Under the pieces are notes generated by a model. That model ran no database searches. It saw only the letters and a program-made list of their open reading frames with translations, and was not told the DNA's origin. 64,000 bases of DNA from an uncultured cyanobacterium (lineage in GTDB: Bacteria; Cyanobacteriota; Cyanobacteriia; Cyanobacteriales; Microcystaceae). The DNA is taken from the NCBI GenBank assembly GCA_903887375.1, contig CAISPN010000047.1, forward strand, positions 1-64,000, read 5' to 3'. Position 1 is the first letter of the stretch. Each line of letters begins with the position of its first letter. Shown piece by piece: positions 8,374 to 17,715 of the stretch. Position numbers and translations under genes: made by a program.

Positions 8374-9117
8374 ATGCTCACTTTAGGAGTAAATATAGAT
8401 CATATTGCCACTATCAGGCAGGCTAGAAGAACTATAGAGCCTGATCCTGTAGCGGCTGCTTTTTTAGCTGAATTAGGCGGGGCTGATGGTATAACCGTTC
8501 ATCTGAGAGAAGATCGTCGCCATATTCAAGATAGAGATGTTGAGATATTGCGCCAAACAGTACGCACTCATCTGAACTTAGAAATGGCGCCTACTGAGGA
8601 GATGATTGAGATAGCGCTACGAATCAAACCAGATTATGTCACTTTGGTACCAGAAAAAAGAGAAGAAGTAACCACCGAAGGAGGTTTAGACCTGCTGAGC
8701 AATCTGGACTATTTTGCTCAAGTGGTAGATAGGCTGCAGTCTTCTGGCATTCCAGTAAGTTGGTTTATCGATGCACAAGAGGATCAAATCAAAGCAGCAG
8801 CTCAAACCAATGCTCTTTTCATTGAACTGCATACTGGCAAATACGCCGAGGCTCATGATGAAAAAAGTCGTCAGCAAGAATTAAGTTTTTTAAACCAAGG
8901 AACTCAACAAGCCAAGCAATTGGGACTGAGAGTCAATGCTGGACATGGTTTGACCTACTGGAATGTTTATCCGATTGCCTGTATTGCTGGGATAGAAGAG
9001 CTAAATATCGGGCATACTATAATTAGCCGCGCTGTCTTAGTTGGCATGGAGCGAGCAGTCCGCGAGATGAAACTTGCCATGCAAAAACCACAAAATCAGG
9101 AAAATTCAAGAAAATGA
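8374..9117 (+). CDS. pdxJ: Pyridoxine 5'-phosphate synthase PdxJ
   Basis: PdxJ condenses 1-deoxyxylulose 5-phosphate with 3-amino-2-oxopropyl phosphate to form pyridoxine phosphate, the DXP-dependent vitamin B6 route. The N-terminus [17 protein letters not shown], then [18 protein letters not shown] and the glycine-rich phosphate site [11 protein letters not shown], define the TIM-barrel family. An in-frame ATG exists 42 bp upstream inside crtB, but all family members begin just before LGVNIDH, so I place the start at 8374, giving 247 residues. It follows crtB by 17 bp and overlaps ycf54 by 4 bp (ATGA). I recall the same pdxJ-ycf54 pairing from Synechocystis (slr1779-slr1780). Confidence 0.95.
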
Positions 9118-9443
9118 CTACCTATCATTACCTTTTAGCCAGTCAAAAATTTTTATTAGAAGAAGAGCCACTTGAAGAAGTACTCAATGAGAGAATACGC
9201 CACTATAAAGAGCGCAACAAAGAAATAGATTTCTGGCTAGTCAAACAGCCTGCTTTTTTGGAGGCTTCTAGCCTATCCAAGATAAAATCTCAAGTGCCGG
9301 CCAAATCTGTAGCCATTATCTCTACCAATGAGCAGTTCATTATCTGGCTCAAGTTGCGTTTAGAGTATGTCTTACTAGGTAAGTTTGAAACTCCGCTAGA
9401 AGGTATCGAAGACCCCCTAGCTTCAGTGGATTTGGTAGCTTGA
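9114..9443 (+). CDS. ycf54: Ycf54, factor for Mg-protoporphyrin monomethyl ester cyclase
   Basis: The 109-residue protein matches the Ycf54 family through its start ([20 protein letters not shown]), [15 protein letters not shown] and [10 protein letters not shown] segments. Ycf54 is required for accumulation and activity of the aerobic Mg-protoporphyrin IX monomethyl ester oxidative cyclase, which makes the isocyclic fifth ring of chlorophyll. It binds the cyclase subunit at the membrane and has no catalytic motif of its own. The gene is translationally coupled to pdxJ by a 4-bp overlap. It ends 1 bp from the convergent radical SAM gene. Length is normal and identification is firm. Confidence 0.93.
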
Positions 9444-9444
9444 T

Positions 9445-10539
9445 CTAAAGCCTAGGCAGCCATTTAGCCTCTTCAAGTACCGCGTTGATAGAAATTACAT
9501 TTCGAGGATCAAACCAAGCCCTTAGCGCTCTGGTGATTTGTCCTTTGGCTAGAGAATCTACTCCCTGGCTAAGAGATACTGCAATATGCTGCATCACACT
9601 GGCATCTCTATAGCAGTCCATCATACAGTTGGTGCAACCATCGAGAACTCTTTGGCTACCATCAAACTCAAAGACATGACATAGAGGTTCTGCCCAATTA
9701 TGGCAGCGATAAAGATTGAGATGCCAATCCAAGTAAAAGAACTTCCACCCCCCCAGACAGCCAAATTGCTCTGGTTCACCGCGCAAATGATTCTGCATAT
9801 CCTCAATTGAAGCTGTGGGGTTAACAACATGAAATTGTTTTTTGAGAGCTTTAATAGCTTCAAATCGCTCTTGTAGCTCTTCTACTGTATAGTCAACCAG
9901 ATTGGAATCAGCATAGCCCAAATAGTTAGAAGCAAGAGTAGTTAAAGGATAGGAGAAAGTAACACTATCAAAGCCCAGACTAGTTAAAAATTTTGGCAAC
10001 TGGGTATAATCATCAATCAGCCGACTCATAGTGACTGAAGCGGTTGTACCAATATCATATTGCTTAAATAGCTCATTAGCAAGCTTAATCCTCTCACAGA
10101 CGCCTTTGAGACCTCTATTGTTTTCATGCTTTTCGGCTGAAGCTGCATCTATAGAGATAATCACACTAACTAGTCCAGCTTCAGCTAAAGCTTTAATTCT
10201 CTCACTGCTCAAAAGAGAACCGTTGGTAACTAGCATTGGAGCCATGCCAATACCAGAGGCATGACGAATCATTTCTTCAAGTTGGGGATGGAGCATAGGC
10301 TCTCCGCCTACATAAATCAAAAAATAAACCCCATTGTTGTAGAGATTTTCGGCCGCTTGCTTAGCATCTTCTAGTGAGACTGAATGCTTAAGTTCAGGCA
10401 GCATCTTATCTACAGCAAAATTACAAAACCCACAACGAGCATTACAATTGCTAGTAATAGCAAACTGGCACATTGAAGGGCCTCCCTCAGTGATACCCTG
10501 CCAGGCTAGGTTCCAAAAATTTCTCTTTTTTTGTATCAT
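9445..10539 (-). CDS. Radical SAM protein, last gene of the hopanoid operon
   Basis: The 364-residue protein has the radical SAM cluster motif CNARCGFC (C32, C36, C39), the GGEPMLHPQ strand typical of SPASM/HpnH-like enzymes, and a cysteine-rich C-terminus ending in CTNCMMDC (about residues 295-303). That tail resembles the CADCMMHC end of HpnH at 15.7 kb, suggesting an auxiliary cluster and a distant common origin. It overlaps hpnI by 4 bp, so it is almost certainly translated with the hopanoid genes. It is not HpnH or HpnJ, both of which are present separately. I infer a hopanoid side-chain modification; the reaction is not known to me. Confidence 0.8.
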   Translation of the reverse strand: MIQKKRNFWNLAWQGITEGGPSMCQFAITSNCNARCGFCNFAVDKMLPELKHSVSLEDAKQAAENLYNNGVYFLIYVGGEPMLHPQLEEMIRHASGIGMAPMLVTNGSLLSSERIKALAEAGLVSVIISIDAASAEKHENNRGLKGVCERIKLANELFKQYDIGTTASVTMSRLIDDYTQLPKFLTSLGFDSVTFSYPLTTLASNYLGYADSNLVDYTVEELQERFEAIKALKKQFHVVNPTASIEDMQNHLRGEPEQFGCLGGWKFFYLDWHLNLYRCHNWAEPLCHVFEFDGSQRVLDGCTNCMMDCYRDASVMQHIAVSLSQGVDSLAKGQITRALRAWFDPRNVISINAVLEEAKWLPRL

Positions 10540-11687
10540 AACTCCTCAATCAGTAACAATTTACCTTTATCTACTAACTTAAATTTGTTATCTCTCCAAG
10601 AGATAGTATCACCAAAAAATCCCAGCACCCAGATCACAAAATCAAACATATCTCTTAGAGGTACTAAATAGAGATATTTTTTAGCCAGGCTATCTTTAAA
10701 TAAAACAGCACCTATAATATAAGCCATTAATAATCTAATTAGCCAGCTTAGGCTAAACACCAGATAGCTAAAGAGTGAAAATTTACTCAACAGCAAAAAG
10801 AATAAACTATTTGTAGTTAATTGAGTAAAAATCAATCCCACATAACCCCAGAATCTTTCGCTCTTTACCCCTTTGGCCCAGCGCAACTGGCGAGCAAATA
10901 AATCAGCCAATTTCACATCAGCCGATACATGCTCTACAATATAGCGCGAGAGATGAACCCGATAACCTCTACGATAGGGTTGATTGGCTAGCTGAAAATC
11001 ATCACTGAGATAATCAGCAATTGCCTCAAATCCACCAATTTCTTCTAATACAGCTCTTTTGATCGCGATAGTTGAACCAAAACCAAAAGAAACCCCCTCT
11101 AGTTTGCGTGCTACCATTATTTTGGGATTAAACACTGTAGCAATGCCCAGAGCTTCAAAAATAGCTACATTTCCTTTGACAAGAGAATTATAGGGACAAG
11201 TAACTACAGCAGTTTGAGGATCTTTAAGAGGTTTGACTATCTCTTTTAAATAATCAGATCCAACTTTGATATCACTATCGGCAATCACTAAAATAGGATA
11301 TTTAGCAATTGTTAGAGCGTTGGCTAAATTAGAAACTTTTAAATTATTACCGATGGTTCGCTCATTAACTATTAAAGAGATATCCAGATCTGGAAAATCT
11401 TGCTTGATCTTTTGGGCTATTTTGAAGCAAGGATCATCTAGGCTGCGCAGAGCAAAAACTATCTGGTATTGAGTATAATCCTGCTGACAGAAGGAAGCCA
11501 AATTCTCATAGATTTGCCAATCTAAACCACATAGAGGCTTGATTATTGTTAATGGGGGACTATATTGTTGCTCTTGTTTAAAATCTTGCTTAAAAAAATC
11601 TATAGCAGCGTAAATGGCATAGAGATTATAGATAATGGCACTTAGGGACAATCCCAAAAATAACATTCTCAAAATATCGATAATCAT
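10536..11687 (-). CDS. hpnI: Hopanoid glycosyltransferase HpnI
   Basis: This is a family GT21-like (ceramide glucosyltransferase-like) membrane enzyme of 383 residues: one N-terminal membrane helix, a GT-A domain with VIADSDIKVGSDYL and SDDFQL, the processive-type motif RQLRWAKG, then several C-terminal membrane helices. In hopanoid producers HpnI attaches N-acetylglucosamine to bacteriohopanetetrol, which HpnK then deacetylates. Here hpnK lies two genes upstream in the same operon, which supports the assignment over a sphingolipid role. It overlaps the EamA gene and the terminal radical SAM gene by 4 bp each. Confidence 0.85.
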   Translation of the reverse strand: MIIDILRMLFLGLSLSAIIYNLYAIYAAIDFFKQDFKQEQQYSPPLTIIKPLCGLDWQIYENLASFCQQDYTQYQIVFALRSLDDPCFKIAQKIKQDFPDLDISLIVNERTIGNNLKVSNLANALTIAKYPILVIADSDIKVGSDYLKEIVKPLKDPQTAVVTCPYNSLVKGNVAIFEALGIATVFNPKIMVARKLEGVSFGFGSTIAIKRAVLEEIGGFEAIADYLSDDFQLANQPYRRGYRVHLSRYIVEHVSADVKLADLFARQLRWAKGVKSERFWGYVGLIFTQLTTNSLFFLLLSKFSLFSYLVFSLSWLIRLLMAYIIGAVLFKDSLAKKYLYLVPLRDMFDFVIWVLGFFGDTISWRDNKFKLVDKGKLLLIEEL

Positions 11688-12493
11688 TGCTCTGCCAAAA
11701 AAAGAACACCCAGGGCAATCATTGATATACCGACTAATCGCCCTTTTGCCAATTTCTCATTGAGAATAAATTTAGCTCCTAGCATACTGATTATATAGGT
11801 CAAAGCTGAAGCCGGTCGTATTAAAGAAATATCAGCCCAGCTCAAAGCCGCAATCATAGCGGCAAAAGCGGTAGCCTGACTGACAACTCCACCTAGAATA
11901 TTGCGATTGCCAATGACCCTGGTAATTGTCTTCCAAATTCGACCATCTGAATTATTAGTAACCTGTTTCATTCCTTTGGCCATGAGGATATCGCCAGTAG
12001 CATCAGCAAAGGAAATAATAAATACTGCCAACCATGTCTTAGAGATTACCAGCCCTAGAGGTAGAAAAAAAGCCGGAACCATTCTGCTATTGACAGAAAA
12101 ATCCATTGTGGTCTTAGCTTTAGTAATACTCACCAGCATTACTCCACAAGTGATGGCAAATATACCTAACCAACGAGTCAGGGGAACTTGCTCTCCCAAA
12201 ATCAACACGGCAAAGACGGCATTGAGCACATAGCTAAGAGCATGGATTGGCAAAACAAAGCTCAAATCTAGCCGGGAGATAGCACCCAAATAGAGAATCA
12301 AAGAGGTTACAAGAAAAATTACCGCTAGCCAGATCCAAAAGTTACTAAAAAGAAAGATGAACAAAGAGATCACAGTAGCAAGATCCAGATGCATAAAATT
12401 AACTGCGCTCAAGGATTTCATGCCACGACTAAGCCAAATATCACCCAAAACCTGGGTGATCATCAAAAGAGATAGTAGAACAAAATTTTTCAA
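11684..12493 (-). CDS. EamA/DMT-family membrane transporter in hopanoid operon
   Basis: The 269-residue protein has about nine to ten hydrophobic helices arranged as two EamA repeats (about 1-115 and 150-269). The first ends with LPIHALSYVLNAVFAVLILGEQVP and the second with IRPASALTYIISMLGAKFILNE, the duplicated signature of drug/metabolite transporters. It overlaps hpnK and hpnI by 4 bp on either side. By position I infer it moves a hopanoid or a precursor such as an activated sugar across the membrane. Substrate and direction are unknown. DMT proteins are too varied for a name. Confidence 0.75.
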   Translation of the reverse strand: MKNFVLLSLLMITQVLGDIWLSRGMKSLSAVNFMHLDLATVISLFIFLFSNFWIWLAVIFLVTSLILYLGAISRLDLSFVLPIHALSYVLNAVFAVLILGEQVPLTRWLGIFAITCGVMLVSITKAKTTMDFSVNSRMVPAFFLPLGLVISKTWLAVFIISFADATGDILMAKGMKQVTNNSDGRIWKTITRVIGNRNILGGVVSQATAFAAMIAALSWADISLIRPASALTYIISMLGAKFILNEKLAKGRLVGISMIALGVLFLAEQ

Positions 12494-13320
12494 ACCTGAT
12501 TTATAACCTCATTAAAGCCAACTAATTGAAAACCTGCTTTGACAATTGCCTCTTTTACCTTTTCACTAACAAGAGCCTCTAGCTCAAAGCTGCCTCTACC
12601 TAGCAAATCTGGATGTAGATAAAGCTCAACTAAATTTCCCTGCATCAGGGGTAATAGGGAAAGTAAATATTGTTCAGTGATTTTGCCAGTTTGCAGTAAA
12701 CCATAGACGCGATCTAGATAAGGTATACCCAGAGCTTGTAAATGTTTTTGCTGAGAGTGCCGTAGCATAGAAAAGATTTTTCCTCCGATAGTCTTTTGGA
12801 GTCTGCCACTTGGTTCAACTTGCAAGTTGATATCTATTTCTTCGTAGGGAAGACGAATAGTGGGTATCGAAAATTCCTGGGTTAATTTCAAAATAATACC
12901 CATCACTGTTGGATTGATATGGTGATGATAATGGCTATCTAGATGGGTCATGATTAATCCGCTCTGAGCAAAGGCTTCTAGTTGCGCTCTGATTTCCGCT
13001 TCTAGTTCTGCTTTAACCTTGGGATTAAATTGGTAATTTAAACTAGCCCAAGTAGTCCAGCTGGAAAAATTCTGCCCCTTGTCCACCAGGTGGGGAATTT
13101 CACTATGTTGAAGATAGGATTTGCCACCACCTAGGACCAAATGCAATCCCACATTTAAAGAAGGGTTGGCCTTAGCTAGCTTGATAGCTTCACCAGCCGC
13201 CTCAGCAGTAATCATCAAGCTAGTACTAGTCAAACAACCCTTTTGATGAGCCTGGATGATTGCCTCATTGACACTTTGAGAAATGCCAAAATCATCCGCA
13301 TTGATTACTAGATAGCGCAT
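12490..13320 (-). CDS. hpnK: Hopanoid-associated deacetylase HpnK (ChbG/YdjC family)
   Basis: The 276-residue protein has the YdjC/ChbG metal site: NADDFG with Asp10-Asp11, the histidine in NVGLHL (His60) and the THLDSHYHHH cluster (His126, Asp128, His130). HpnK removes the acetyl group from the N-acetylglucosaminyl-bacteriohopanetetrol made by HpnI, giving the glucosamine derivative. Its place in an operon with hpnH, hpnI and hpnJ favours HpnK over a chitooligosaccharide deacetylase. It follows the ferritin-like gene by 4 bp and overlaps the EamA gene by 4 bp. Length is typical. Confidence 0.88.
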   Translation of the reverse strand: MRYLVINADDFGISQSVNEAIIQAHQKGCLTSTSLMITAEAAGEAIKLAKANPSLNVGLHLVLGGGKSYLQHSEIPHLVDKGQNFSSWTTWASLNYQFNPKVKAELEAEIRAQLEAFAQSGLIMTHLDSHYHHHINPTVMGIILKLTQEFSIPTIRLPYEEIDINLQVEPSGRLQKTIGGKIFSMLRHSQQKHLQALGIPYLDRVYGLLQTGKITEQYLLSLLPLMQGNLVELYLHPDLLGRGSFELEALVSEKVKEAIVKAGFQLVGFNEVINQV

Positions 13321-13324
13321 AGGG

Positions 13325-14176
13325 CTAATTGGTCTGGACCGAGAGGCTATTTTTTTTCGGTAGCAATTTAACTACAGAAAGAGCAACACTAGAAAGCCTA
13401 GGGAGTAATCTTGGCTGGAGAAGTTCTGGATCGAATTGCTGCATTCTTTTTTGATTTTCTTGAATGCAAAGTGAAAAAAACATTTCTGCAGTTAGATCGT
13501 CCATAAAAGTGCGAGCTCCAGTTGCCGCAAAAGCTTGCTCTTCACGCTCTCCAGCTCCAGCAAAGGTCTTAACCAATCCTGTTAGCGCGCTTCCATAGTG
13601 ATATAGGGCATGGGCTGAGCGCAAGGGAGACCAACCTCTACCTCGCTCTATCTGCAAATAGCTGATCCAATTGACAAAGAAAACAATATGGCGAGCTTCT
13701 TCGTTCATAATAGGATCGAAAATATCGAAAAATGCCTGAGGTAGATACTTAGCCAAGCGAGCTATCTCAAATAGACCAAAGGCAAAGAAAGAATCTAAAC
13801 ATTCTTCAAAACCGAAATCTGTAAAGGCTCTTTCTATATCAAGGGGTAGCTCTATATTTTCAGGCTGTGATATAGGTATTTCATAGCGGTTAATCAAAAA
13901 TTGAATCAAGCGTCCATGACGAGTTTCTTCTTGACCTTGAAGGGTGATTGCCTCTCTAATTAAAGGATCTTCAATCGTCTTGGCAAAAGCGCTGACCATG
14001 ATCCCGGCTTTTTTTTCAGTATAGAGTGCTTCTTTCCAGAAAGGAATAGCTCTTAATCTCTCTAAGGAAACGGGATCTAGATCTGGCCAAGGTAGGGTTT
14101 CTGGATTATATTCTTGGTAGCTATCGAGAAAACTACGACAAAATAGTTCTTTATGAGCTTGGGTTCCTAGTTTCAT
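13325..14176 (-). CDS. Diiron ferritin-like protein in hopanoid operon
   Basis: The 283-residue helical protein contains two EExRH motifs, EETRH (Glu83/84, His87) and EEARH (Glu159/160, His163). With upstream Glu54 and middle Glu137 these form a complete six-ligand set for a carboxylate-bridged diiron centre. The spacing resembles ferritin-like oxidases/oxygenases rather than storage ferritins: it is longer, has no cage-forming signature, and carries a basic C-terminal end. It sits between hpnJ (24 bp) and hpnK (4 bp). By position it may hydroxylate or desaturate a hopanoid, or supply iron/oxygen protection to the radical SAM enzymes. Function is inference only. Confidence 0.75.
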   Translation of the reverse strand: MKLGTQAHKELFCRSFLDSYQEYNPETLPWPDLDPVSLERLRAIPFWKEALYTEKKAGIMVSAFAKTIEDPLIREAITLQGQEETRHGRLIQFLINRYEIPISQPENIELPLDIERAFTDFGFEECLDSFFAFGLFEIARLAKYLPQAFFDIFDPIMNEEARHIVFFVNWISYLQIERGRGWSPLRSAHALYHYGSALTGLVKTFAGAGEREEQAFAATGARTFMDDLTAEMFFSLCIQENQKRMQQFDPELLQPRLLPRLSSVALSVVKLLPKKNSLSVQTN

Positions 14177-14200
14177 AATATTTATTTATCCTTATCAAAA

Positions 14201-15631
14201 TCAAACAAGAGATTGATTACGGCGATCTTTGAGATAGGCAAAAAATTCACGACCTTCTCTCAGACGACGTACTAACATTTGTGGATCTGCCAACATCTCC
14301 TGGACAATCGGAATGATGGCTTGAGGACGGAAATAGAAACGGCGATAAAGGCGCTCTACTGCATCGTCAATTTGCTTAGAGCGCAGATGAGGATATTCTA
14401 GGGTAGATAGCTGAATACCAGATTCAGAAACCATAGCTCCACTAGTAAACCAGTTGTTTTCTTGGGCTTGGCGGTAAAGCTCGGTTCCAGGGTAAGGAGC
14501 GGCAATCGAAACCTGGATAGTATGTGGATTGACTTCACAGGCAAAGCGAATGGTATCTTCAATGGTCTCTTGCGTTTCATTGGGTAAACCAATGATAAAA
14601 GTACCATGTACAGTGATTCCCAACTTACGACAATCAGCCATAAACTTGCGTGCTACTTCTAGCTTGATGCCCTTTCTGATACCATCTAAGACTTCTTGGT
14701 TGCCCGATTCAAAACCAACTAGAAGCAATCTCAATCCATTATTTTTAAGGGTTTTTAAAGTCTCATAGTCCAGATTAGCTCTAGCATTACAACTCCAGGT
14801 GAGCTTTAGCTTTTTGAGATGTTCGCTAATGGCAATTGCTCTGGCTTTATCGATGGTGAAGGTATCATCATCAAACATATATTCGCGCACGCTATTGCCA
14901 AAAAGGGCTTTAGCCTGCTCCATTTCTTGTCCAACTGCCTCTGGGCTTTTAGAGCGATATTGATGGCCACCAATGGTCTGAGGCCAGAGACAAAATGAAC
15001 ATTTGGCCGGGCAACCTCTGCCTGTATAGAAAGAAATATAGGGATGCAGTAGATAGCCAATGAAATATTTATTGATATCTAGATCCCTTTTATAAACTGG
15101 CAATACCGAAGGCATTGCATCCCAATCGTGAATCAGATCGCGCTCAAGGTTGTGTTGAATCTGACCATTTTCATCTCGATAGCTTAAACCCTTAATGGTT
15201 GAGTAAGGTTTTCCTTCTGCAAGCTCTAAACAGGTATAGTCAAACTCACTGCGGCAGACAAAATCTATAATTGGATTTTCTTGAAGGGTCTGCTCTGGTA
15301 ATACCGCTACATGAGCTCCAATAAAACCTATCTCCGTAGAGGGTTTCTGTTGCTTGATAGCTTGGGCACACCTGACATCATTGTCCAGTGAAGGAGTACT
15401 GGTATGCATGATCACCAGTTCGTAGTCTTTAGCTATTGCCAGAATATCTTCTACTGACTGTCCAGCAGGAGGAGCATCTACCAATTTACTACCTGGGACT
15501 AAGGCTGCAGGCTGAGCTAGCCAAGTAGGATACCAAAAAGAGGTGATTTCTCGTTTAGCTTGATATCTAGAGCCAGCACCCCCATCAAATCCATCAAATG
15601 AAGGTGGGCTTAAAAATAATGTTTTTTTCAT
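14201..15631 (-). CDS. hpnJ: Hopanoid radical SAM enzyme HpnJ (B12-binding type)
   Basis: The 476-residue protein begins with a Rossmann-like cobalamin-binding region (about 1-160), followed by the radical SAM motif CPAKCSFC (C207, C211, C214) in GRGCPAKCSFCLWPQTIGG and a long C-terminal helical part. This is the HpnJ architecture. HpnJ is needed to make bacteriohopanetetrol cyclitol ether, probably by ring contraction of the glucosamine left by HpnI and HpnK. hpnH lies 5 bp upstream in the same operon and all three cyclitol-ether genes are present. Length and motifs are normal. Confidence 0.9.
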   Translation of the reverse strand: MKKTLFLSPPSFDGFDGGAGSRYQAKREITSFWYPTWLAQPAALVPGSKLVDAPPAGQSVEDILAIAKDYELVIMHTSTPSLDNDVRCAQAIKQQKPSTEIGFIGAHVAVLPEQTLQENPIIDFVCRSEFDYTCLELAEGKPYSTIKGLSYRDENGQIQHNLERDLIHDWDAMPSVLPVYKRDLDINKYFIGYLLHPYISFYTGRGCPAKCSFCLWPQTIGGHQYRSKSPEAVGQEMEQAKALFGNSVREYMFDDDTFTIDKARAIAISEHLKKLKLTWSCNARANLDYETLKTLKNNGLRLLLVGFESGNQEVLDGIRKGIKLEVARKFMADCRKLGITVHGTFIIGLPNETQETIEDTIRFACEVNPHTIQVSIAAPYPGTELYRQAQENNWFTSGAMVSESGIQLSTLEYPHLRSKQIDDAVERLYRRFYFRPQAIIPIVQEMLADPQMLVRRLREGREFFAYLKDRRNQSLV

Positions 15632-15636
15632 AGCTA

Positions 15637-16650
15637 TTAACCCAATACACTCCCAATTGCCCGTCCCATATTCTCAAGCTTGAGAGCATCGAGAGCTGCA
15701 GTAGTCTCATAACCACAATGCATCATGCAATCAGCGCATTTGGGATTGCCACTTTTAGGACCATATTGCTTCCAGTCGGTTTTTTCCAGTAATTCTTGAT
15801 AACTACTGTAGTAGCCCTCATTGAGAAGATAACAAGGCTTTTGCCAACCCAATATGCTATAACTGGGCATACCCCAAGGTGTGCAATCGTAATCTTTTTC
15901 ACCCATCAGAAAATCTAGAAAGAGGGGATTATGATTGAAATTCCAATTTTTTTGTTTCTTTTTCCAGGGATTTAATAATTCTCTAAAGAGCGCCTTGGTC
16001 TGTTCTTTTTTAAGGAAATGCTCTTGATCTGGAGCCCACTCGTAGCTATAACCGGGCGAGATCATCATGCCATCAAGATTGAGGGTCTCTAGAAAATCAA
16101 AGAACTCTTGCATTCTTTGAGGATCTGCTCCAGCAAAGATCGTAGTATTAGTACTAACTCTAAAGCCTTTAGCTTTAGCGGCCTTGATTGCTTTAACGGC
16201 AACTTCAAAAACACCATCTCGATCTACTGATTGGTCGTGCTCTTGCTGGAAACCATCCAAGTGAACGCTAAATGTCAAATAGGGTGAAGGGGTGAAGCGA
16301 TCTAAGTTTTTTTCCAGCAAAATAGCATTTGTACAAAGATAAATATATTTCTTGCGCTGGATTAATCCTGCAACTATCTCGTCAATTTGGGGATGAAGCA
16401 GTGGCTCACCTCCAGGGATAGAGACAATAGGAGCGCCGCACTGCTCGACAGCGGCAAAGCAATCTTGAGGGCTGAGGTTCTGTTTGAGGATTTCAGCTGG
16501 ATGTTGGATCTTGCCACAGCCTTTGCAAGCTAAATTACAGCGAAAAAGTGGCTCTAGCATTAAAACCAGGGGAAACTTTTGGCGACCCCGAAGCTTTTGT
16601 GTAAATATATATTTACCTATATCCAAGGCTTGTTGTATTTGTACAGCCAT
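15637..16650 (-). CDS. hpnH: Adenosyl hopanoid synthase, radical SAM HpnH
   Basis: HpnH joins the 5'-deoxyadenosyl radical to diploptene to give adenosylhopane, the first step of side-chain formation. The 337-residue sequence has CNLACKGC (C38, C42, C45), [23 protein letters not shown] and the C-terminal [11 protein letters not shown] tail, all typical of HpnH. It is the first gene of a seven-gene minus-strand run. A good Shine-Dalgarno AGGAG (16656-16660) sits 5 nt before the ATG, so the 93-bp gap to sds probably carries the operon promoter. The squalene-hopene cyclase gene and hpnG are not in the window. Confidence 0.93.
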
Positions 16651-16743: not shown

Positions 16744-17715
16744 TTAGTATAACCTATCCAAAACATACTCAACTAGATCTAGTAGAGCTTGGGCTGAAGG
16801 AGAAGGAGCAAGGCAATCGAGATACTTAGTAGCTGAAATTGCATGCTGATTAGCCATCTCGCGTGATTTTGCTATGCCTTGACTGCTCATCACCATGCTG
16901 ATGGCATTTTCAAGATCTCCATCTTGACTAAATTCTCTCTCTATAAGGGTTTTTAAATAGGGTTTTTCCTGCATAGCTAAAAGGGCAGGAGCAGTGATAT
17001 TGCCACTGGCCAAATCAGAGCAGGCAGGTTTACCTAAAACATCACTAGCAGTGGTGAAATCTAAAATATCATCCACAATTTGAAAAGCCAGTCCCAAATG
17101 TTTGCCGTAATTGTAAAGAGAATCAACTACTTGACGAGGGGCATCACTCAATACTGCGGCAGCTTTTGTGCTATTGGCAATCAGAGAAGCTGTTTTGTAA
17201 TAACTCTTTTCTATATAGCCTTCTAGGCTCAAACTTGTATCAAAACGATTAATCCCTTGGAGTATTTCACCTTCGGCAAAATCGCGGATCACCTCAGAGA
17301 GTAACTTGACCACCTCTAGATTATCTAAATTTGCTAAATACCAAGATGATTGAGCAAAAAGAAAATCTCCAGCTAGAACAGCAATACGGTTATTAAACAG
17401 GCTATTTACTGTAGGGACATTGCGACGGAGATCTGCTTCATCGACTACATCATCATGCACCAATGAAGCTGTATGGATCATTTCAGTAATCTCAGCTAGT
17501 CTTCGATGACGCTGCGTGAGTTCCTGCTCCAAAAGCGTTGCTCTAGAGGCCAATAAGACTATGGCAGGTCGCACTCGCTTACCGCCGGCTGTGAAGAGGT
17601 GCTCAGCTGCGGCCCCTAAAATAGGATGACGAGCGCCGATTAACTGGGTTAAGTTCTCGGTTAGTAATTCGAGATCAAGTTCAACTGGAGCAAAAAGAGA
17701 TGAGGTGGAGATCAT
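16744..17715 (-). CDS. sds: Solanesyl diphosphate synthase
   Basis: A trans-polyprenyl diphosphate synthase of 323 residues with both aspartate-rich motifs: DDVVDEADLRRN (D88-D92) and DDILD (D215-D219). The close match to cyanobacterial/plastid long-chain synthases (GARHPILGAAAEHLF, GKRVRPA, HDDVVDEA) indicates it makes the C45 side chain of plastoquinone. The GGPP synthase for carotenoids and chlorophyll has a different N-terminus and should be elsewhere. The stop codon is 93 bp from the hpnH start. Upstream lie 100 bp of AT-rich sequence before the next gene on the same strand. Confidence 0.88.
   Translation of the reverse strand: MISTSSLFAPVELDLELLTENLTQLIGARHPILGAAAEHLFTAGGKRVRPAIVLLASRATLLEQELTQRHRRLAEITEMIHTASLVHDDVVDEADLRRNVPTVNSLFNNRIAVLAGDFLFAQSSWYLANLDNLEVVKLLSEVIRDFAEGEILQGINRFDTSLSLEGYIEKSYYKTASLIANSTKAAAVLSDAPRQVVDSLYNYGKHLGLAFQIVDDILDFTTASDVLGKPACSDLASGNITAPALLAMQEKPYLKTLIEREFSQDGDLENAISMVMSSQGIAKSREMANQHAISATKYLDCLAPSPSAQALLDLVEYVLDRLY

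Follow-up and report, generated by a model that had tools for sequence, protein, structure and literature searches.

The window analysed here is a stretch of 64,000 nucleotides from an uncultured cyanobacterium of the Microcystaceae (assembly GCA_903887375.1, contig CAISPN010000047.1, positions 1 to 64,000), and forms part of a host genome of 2.93 Mb. It carries a run of seven genes for hopanoid side-chain synthesis in the order hpnH-hpnJ-DII-hpnK-EamA-hpnI-rSAM2, in which DII denotes the gene for a diiron protein and rSAM2 a second radical SAM gene. We consider it probable that DII encodes an O2-dependent hydroxylase for bacteriohopanepentol (BHpentol, hereafter pentol) and bacteriohopanehexol (BHhexol, hereafter hexol), within an operon that finishes the tail of the bacteriohopanepolyols (BHPs) and in which EamA would serve export and rSAM2 editing. 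This proposal rests on which genes are present, on how they are linked and co-occur, and on the conservation of the metal ligands, from which the function of DII is deduced, and it presents DII as a strong, testable candidate gene for a known product that has had no known gene.

BHpentol and BHhexol serve as geological biomarkers, and in a 54-strain survey of November 2025 their genes are described as unknown, with no candidate near the hpn clusters (PMC12583986). In the open-access literature, no paper was found that names a pentol or diiron hopanoid hydroxylase gene in its title or at the start of its abstract. According to the published steps, HpnH attaches the adenosyl group, an HpnG-type enzyme, here encoded outside the operon, takes off the adenine, HpnI transfers N-acetylglucosamine, HpnK removes its acetyl group, and HpnJ performs the contraction to the cyclitol ether (PMC12583986). 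The operon as a whole would build and finish the polar tail of BHPs. DII, as a soluble, ferritin-like diiron oxygenase, would insert an extra hydroxyl into the hopane side chain beside the polyol, giving pentol, or hexol where a second DII copy is present, in a step placed before, or independent of, the decoration of the head group. From its family and position, EamA would translocate the glycosylated hopanoid over the membrane, and rSAM2 may use radical chemistry to alter the head group, be it sugar or cyclitol, which is the least secure step of this scheme.

Occurrence of DII in hopanoid-producing genomes

The distribution of DII was assessed in draws of 386 Cyanobacteriota and 289 Alphaproteobacteria genomes, in which a genome was scored as HpnH+ when it contained a protein over the NCBIfam cut-off. 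DII was present in 19 cyanobacterial genomes (16 with full-length genes, 3 with fragments only), all 19 of them HpnH+, and in 18 alphaproteobacterial genomes (in one, G572, in pieces), all 18 of them HpnH+; that is, DII was restricted to HpnH+ hosts in both draws (37/37, four with fragments only). HpnH+ genomes made up 84/386 of the Cyanobacteriota and 77/289 of the Alphaproteobacteria, and the hypergeometric p for the coincidence of DII with HpnH was 4.5e-14 and 9e-12, respectively, with kinship ignored. For the same-class cyanobacteria alone (82 HpnH+ of 181 tallied, the 99 HpnH- genomes having been counted by hand and 12 genomes without a match left out), p was 8e-8, again with kinship ignored. 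DII carriers were spread over many clades of the alphaproteobacterial HpnH tree, which comprised 76 of the 77 HpnH+ sequences, together with four named references, and left out G551, split by a stop. All four alphaproteobacterial metagenome-assembled genomes (MAGs) recovered in a separate scan for named DII loci were likewise HpnH+, two of these being also in the draw. With DII confined to HpnH-bearing hosts in the searched genomes, the proposed function would let genomes predict pentol producers.

A preliminary description of this DNA had tentatively linked all three extra genes of the operon to hopanoid metabolism, and the counts bear this out: every host was HpnH+, for rSAM2 (10/10) and EamA (18/18) as for DII, and the opposite pattern, in which the extra genes are common without hopanoid genes, was looked for in the genome draws and did not occur.

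Among the HpnH+ Cyanobacteriota, HpnJ over its cut-off was found in 7 of the 16 genomes with intact DII and in 28 of the 64 others (80 of the 84 HpnH+ genomes were covered, with the fragmentary HpnJ of G155 scored as absent), which is no association. DII is thus independent of HpnJ, and its target is probably the side chain in general rather than the cyclitol ether. The preliminary view that the coupled genes act on one shared product holds insofar as all are linked to hopanoids; the cyclitol ether need not be the product for all of them. On the same counts, DII was rejected as a dedicated cyclitol ether enzyme, and its presence in only 19/84 HpnH+ cyanobacterial genomes led us to reject it also as the missing enzyme from ribosylhopane to bacteriohopanetetrol (BHT).

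In three HpnH+ genomes, DII was broken or fragmentary (G382 at locus L036, G167 at L037 and G328 at L019). At L037, the broken DII still lies beside HpnG-RND-HpnA-HpnH. These fragments represent probable recent losses of DII.

In the plasmid collection PLSDB, 13 records carried DII, all of them from Burkholderiaceae. Of the 31 records with HpnH, DII was on the same record in Burkholderia (4/4), Cupriavidus (4/4) and Caballeronia (3/3), and was absent from the HpnH records of Mycetohabitans (9), Azospirillum (7), Streptomyces (2), Roseomonas (1) and Methylobacterium (1), in a comparison made per replicon, where absence on one replicon does not mean absence from the genome.

Gene neighbourhoods of DII

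Neighbourhoods were analysed in 80 named loci, the best 80 of 255 DII relatives, which were collected by a scan requiring an exact peptide pattern, and the cyanobacterial loci among them were scored for hpn genes within the locus DNA only. One or more of the core genes hpnA, G, H, I, J and K were present in 67/80 loci, with hpnI, J or K in 35/80 and an HpnG-like gene in 34/80. Within 300 bp of DII and on the same strand were HpnG in 28 loci, HpnJ in 19, HpnK in 19, HpnI in 5 and EamA in 2, with paralogues counted under HpnJ and HpnI as well (e.g., HpnJ at 42-43% in L050, L052 and L060). The seven genes, which the preliminary description had treated as one set, are therefore not a fixed unit: DII accompanies the HpnG-like gene about as often as it does hpnI, J or K, and outside close relatives of the window genome the extra genes are shuffled, the seven-gene order being limited to L039 with L114 (a pair of contigs from a single MAG) and, in part, L040.

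A layout common in Nostoc and its relatives has DII-HpnG divergent from RND permease-HpnA-HpnH. In the group of L027:10579-11337 and its relatives, the HpnG-like phosphorylase that was scored reached 79 bits against TIGR03468, for which the cut-off is 187, so that it is to be called HpnG-like and not a curated HpnG; with a cyanobacterial protein this far under the cut-off, annotation may miss HpnG in cyanobacteria.

Linkage to hpn genes was seen in 4/18 alphaproteobacterial DII genomes. L150, L151 and L163 have the arrangement hpnI-hpnJ-hpnK-DII(-DII)..hpnA with squalene-hopene cyclase (SHC) nearby; L152 has one DII copy on either side of hpnH, SHC and hpnA. On the megaplasmid of Cupriavidus metallidurans CH34, DII, a glycosyltransferase, hpnA on the opposite strand and hpnH all lie within 5 kb, and in a Burkholderia cenocepacia record DII and HpnH are about 377 kb apart.

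In three loci, an HpnJ-like radical SAM gene (42-43% to HpnJ) lies right after DII (L050:9928-11346, L052:10016-11422 and L060:10018-11439). An HpnI relative precedes DII in all three, while L052 and L060 also have hpnK and another HpnI after it. It is possible that this HpnJ-like protein carries out a different ring chemistry.

Metal ligands, fold and family of the diiron protein

The motifs E..ExxH..E..ExxH are conserved in DII, and the full set of four carboxylates and two histidines is kept in the protein of the window. Ligands E84, H87, E160 and H163 were kept in 116/116 aligned relatives, and E54 and E125 in 115/116. The window protein had no Pfam or NCBIfam match at E <= 10, in a search where the HMMER filters discard most matches above 0.1. 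Compared with the PDB as a profile at E <= 1, DII matched MiaE-type hydroxylases only, namely 5ux1 (E 0.0057) and another (E 0.16); membership of the MiaE family is accordingly not significant, given the former value and the lack of a Pfam match. The AlphaFold model was confident and all-helical (predicted local distance difference test, pLDDT, 88). The 50 matches listed by VIA-align were all R2-like ligand-binding oxidases (R2lox), ribonucleotide reductase R2 proteins or methane monooxygenases, at Z 13-14; in Foldseek the best E was 2.9e-3. Sub-threshold matches to AurF, AcsF (PRK13654), Ferritin_2 and Rubrerythrin were obtained with a clade II relative (see below), and to AurF with a Burkholderia relative.

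With MiaE (5ux1, 8fhb), AurF, AcsF, R2lox and the methane monooxygenase hydroxylase, DII thus shares the ferritin-like helical fold, the E/ExxH/E/ExxH ligands and a faint profile similarity. It differs from the MiaE-type oxygenases in showing no significant family membership, and in having hopanoid genomes as hosts and many hopanoid genes as neighbours. The patchy pattern of DII, its diiron ligands and its HpnG or HpnIJK neighbours would all fit a role in adding the extra hydroxyl of pentol. If DII needs O2, BHpentol and BHhexol would be oxygen-dependent markers.

DII copies and clades

When 112 unique DII proteins were placed in a midpoint-rooted tree, they separated into clade III (n=19, support 1.0), clade II (n=10, 0.934) and a cyanobacterial clade I (n=83, 0.813). 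Where Alphaproteobacteria have a single DII copy, it belonged to clade III in 12/12 genomes; where they have two (five genomes from the draw and two named-locus MAGs), there was one of clade II and one of clade III in 7/7. Clade II was never alone among the alphaproteobacterial DII genomes examined, as expected if hexol requires prior pentol, and sequential hydroxylation, by clade III and then by clade II, would be the natural candidate reading. Hexol is rare and confined to Rhodospirillales (PMC12583986), and Asaia, Nitrospirillum and Enhydrobacter are among the hexol makers that the survey names; in its Table 3, pentol plus hexol reaches 5% or more in 19 strains, and relatives of Rhodopseudomonas palustris and Methylorubrum produce BHPs but no pentol. 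We put forward only tentatively, as less likely than not, the finer assignment in which DII is a new family of hydroxylases specific to single positions of the hopanoid side chain: clade III would add the C-31 hydroxyl of proteobacterial pentol, clade II then that at C-30 to give hexol, and clade I would make the 30,32,33,34,35-pentol of cyanobacteria; were this three-clade reading true, the biomarkers would be tied to genes and to molecular oxygen. In three cyanobacterial genomes clade II occurs beside clade I (L058, L065, and L113 with L087). At L118:8110-9852, two DII domains, of clades III and II, are apparently fused in one open reading frame (ORF) of 580 residues.

Agreement with reported lipids

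Pentol ranks with the BHPs most often reported from cyanobacteria, the 30,32,33,34,35-pentol has been seen only there, and four Dolichospermum/Aphanizomenon strains have no pentol, most of them making cyclitol ether (PMC5642901). Consistent with this, Dolichospermum or Aphanizomenon appeared in none of the titles of the 80 loci (best 80 of 255) and Nostoc, in which pentol derivatives have been characterised (PMC8560942), in 23. Burkholderia cenocepacia K56-2 is reported to make a pentol cyclitol ether (PMC8560942), and DII is present in another strain of that species, not K56-2 (PLSDB record).

Several observations weigh against DII as the pentol and hexol hydroxylase. The agreement with lipids just described is at the level of species or genus, with no strain matched from gene to lipid. 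Linkage is incomplete: 13/80 named loci have no core hpn gene in the locus DNA, and several of these are short contigs, but L053, L070, L105, L115 and L118 span more than 18 kb; 14/18 alphaproteobacterial DII genomes have no hpn gene or SHC near DII, and 3/4 Burkholderiaceae stretches no hpn gene, over up to 31 kb in both cases; and HpnH is not on the DII replicons of Paraburkholderia phymatum and Caballeronia zhejiangensis, where the search covered the replicon only. The structural matches are weak (best Foldseek E 2.9e-3), and helical bundles may reach Z of about 13 by chance. A divergent relative (34%) at L035:9556-10416, in an HpnH+ genome with no hpn neighbour within the locus DNA, replaces two ligand glutamates, E54 and E125. 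Rhodopila LVNP, of which both anoxic and aerobic cultures were grown, has a pentol cyclitol ether (PMC8590665, whose available text leaves unstated which culture was used for liquid chromatography-mass spectrometry), and pentol made anoxically would be incompatible with an enzyme that depends on O2. Acidobacteria, too, contain pentafunctionalised BHPs (PMC5462960), and our DII draws were from Cyanobacteriota and Alphaproteobacteria. Finally, the gene for unsaturated BHPs is likewise unknown (PMC12583986), which leaves room for a desaturase.

Alternative functions of DII

The best-surviving alternative, which we rate as unlikely, is that DII is such a diiron desaturase, making ring double bonds (delta-6 or delta-11) in BHPs. 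Unsaturated BHPs are reported from Burkholderia cenocepacia (PMC8560942) and Acetobacteraceae (PMC12583986), ferritin-like desaturases exist, and stearoyl-ACP desaturase was among the Foldseek matches of DII. However, unsaturated BHPs amount to 0-1% in those Sphingomonadales whose pentol plus hexol reaches 15-90% (PMC12583986, Table 3), in a comparison that concerns lipids only. DII adjoins side-chain genes (hpnG, I, J and K) in the named loci, and it is frequent in cyanobacteria, from which pentol is so often reported. Ring-unsaturated BHPs are not known to have been reported from cyanobacteria; no search was aimed at them.

Slightly less favoured is a route by oxidation and then hydration, which has been proposed as an alternative way to pentol (PMC12583986): DII would oxidise BHT at C-32 to a 32-oxo compound, and hydration of its enol would then yield pentol. 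A 32-oxo hopanoid is known from Zymomonas mobilis (PMC12583986). No hydratase was recognised among ten annotated DII neighbours, in a look that was not systematic. Alcohol oxidation, moreover, is usually carried out by dehydrogenases. On this route too, if right, DII would count as a pentol gene.

Equally improbable, in our estimate, is another BHP-linked role, in which DII would protect radical SAM enzymes from O2 or peroxide, or would sense iron or O2 in connection with hopanoid membranes. Rubrerythrin-like ferritin folds are able to scavenge peroxide, and the operon encodes three radical SAM enzymes. Against this, the patchy occurrence of DII among HpnH+ cyanobacteria and the genomes G167, G328 and G382, which keep HpnH with DII merely fragmentary, argue against a helper required by HpnH, and the tandem, diverged DII copies resemble specialisation for substrate or position.

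That the extra genes are chance neighbours of the hpn genes in the window genome can be nearly dismissed: the dispersal of other pathway genes (SHC on contig C66, the HpnG-like gene on C121) and the confinement of the seven-gene order to close relatives would allow it, and it is contradicted by the HpnH+-only hosts of all three genes and by repeated linkage in two phyla.

The EamA-family protein and the second radical SAM enzyme

EamA relatives, counted at E <= 1e-12, were present in 18/45 HpnH+ and 0/35 HpnH- Cyanobacteriota (Fisher 5e-6; one of the 18 matches, in G159, is partial) in a sample of 80 chosen genomes, whose 45 of the 84 HpnH+ genomes include all 16 with intact DII and all 10 with rSAM2. 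Of the 13 loci showing EamA among the 80 named loci, 9 have it between hpnK and hpnI. ArnE and ArnF flip an amino-sugar lipid, and the window protein shares the EamA domain and weak matches with them, at 22 and 21.8 bits against NCBIfam cut-offs of 92 and 99, so that membership of these equivalogs was not reached. In the simplest reading, EamA is probably a flippase for an amino-sugar hopanoid lipid.

rSAM2, counted at E <= 1e-40, was found in 10/386 Cyanobacteriota genomes. HpnJ was present in 9/10 rSAM2 genomes vs 26/70 others (Fisher 0.002, uncorrected for kinship), which tilts rSAM2 towards the cyclitol branch; the rSAM2 genome lacking HpnJ is G080. The CX3CX2C motif (C32, C36, C39) and five further cysteines (C261, C279, C302, C305 and C309) were invariant in 14 sequences. 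The nearest solved relative was the cytosylglucuronate decarboxylase BlsE (profile E 5.7e-24, core domain only), and BtrN was also matched, both being radical SAM enzymes that act on sugars or aminocyclitols. These features suggest sugar or cyclitol chemistry, and rSAM2 probably edits the hopanoid head group. The 25 best of 60 NCBIfam families compared all gave fewer than 78 bits, far under their cut-offs; TIGR03470 (cut-off 225) was outside these 25, and rSAM2 was rejected as a second HpnH. An AlphaFold model from a six-sequence input had pLDDT 49, too low for use. In eight further rSAM2 stretches, core hpn neighbours were seen in L178, L181 and L182 and EamA only in L183, with neither in L179, L180, L184 and L185.

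Together, EamA and rSAM2 suggest an export step and additional chemistry on the head group in cyanobacteria. The preliminary description, with its suggestion of an undescribed modification or export route, is partly supported: EamA fits export and rSAM2 head-group editing, and DII is the best candidate gene for products already known, pentol and hexol.

Operon layout in the window

In the ORF list of the window, the seven genes all lie on the reverse strand and are spaced, in gene order, by +5, +24, +4, -4, -4 and -4 bp (Table 1), as tight a packing as had been claimed. HpnH, HpnJ, HpnK and HpnI, named earlier from motifs, all exceed their curated NCBIfam cut-offs, and the labels given to the other three hold as well, by the ligand motifs of the diiron protein and by scores above the PF00892 and PF04055 cut-offs.

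Table 1. Genes of the operon (window positions) and amidinotransferase genes of other loci (locus positions), with the basis of each assignment
Feature	Position	Strand	Basis
hpnH, adenosyl-hopene transferase (radical SAM)	15637..16650	-	TIGR03470 548 bits, cut-off 225
hpnJ, radical SAM enzyme, cyclitol ether formation	14201..15631	-	TIGR03471 804 bits, cut-off 578
DII, ferritin-like diiron protein, proposed side-chain hydroxylase	13325..14176	-	Ligand motifs, AlphaFold, MiaE profile match, HpnH+ hosts
hpnK, YdjC-type deacetylase	12490..13320	-	TIGR03473 254 bits, cut-off 233
EamA-family membrane protein, proposed flippase of glycosylated hopanoid	11684..12493	-	PF00892 42.8 bits, cut-off 28.2
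hpnI, glycosyltransferase	10536..11687	-	TIGR03472 341 bits, cut-off 310
rSAM2, radical SAM with SPASM-like cysteines at the C-terminus, proposed editor of the head group	9445..10539	-	PF04055 75.4 bits
Amidinotransferase genes	L022:6436-7536, L046:950-2047, L167:886-1974		Nearest solved structures SxtG, arginine:glycine amidinotransferase

The operon is a variant of a known hopanoid cluster. Its hpnH, I, K and J are common to it and to the hpnI-hpnK-hpnJ cyclitol ether cluster of Burkholderia and Alphaproteobacteria (PMC12583986), closely packed in both; it differs in its gene order and in the three extra genes, which go unnamed in the excerpts of that paper. Elsewhere in the window genome, SHC is present on contig C66 (TIGR01507 933 bits, cut-off 431) and one HpnG-like gene on contig C121 (33% identity to the HpnG-like query, E 6e-22). 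A scan for consensus promoters gave 19 matches vs a mean of 21.4 in shuffled sequence, and for terminators 7 vs 8.4; since neither count exceeds shuffled sequence, a single transcript is neither supported nor split by them.

The amidinotransferase gene adjoins DII in two cyanobacteria, and in one alphaproteobacterium it adjoins a DII piece at the contig edge. One of these loci, L046, is titled Gloeocapsa, and a guanidine-substituted BHT cyclitol ether has been reported from a Gloeocapsa enrichment (PMC5642901). The DII-adjacent amidinotransferase is a predicted candidate gene for this guanidine substitution; its relatives were found in 9/80 genomes, one of the nine being HpnH-.

Upstream of the operon by 93 bp, and on the same strand, lies a gene for solanesyl diphosphate synthase (16744-17715), and at the other end a convergent Ycf54 gene (9114-9443) ends 1 bp from rSAM2, the last gene of the operon.

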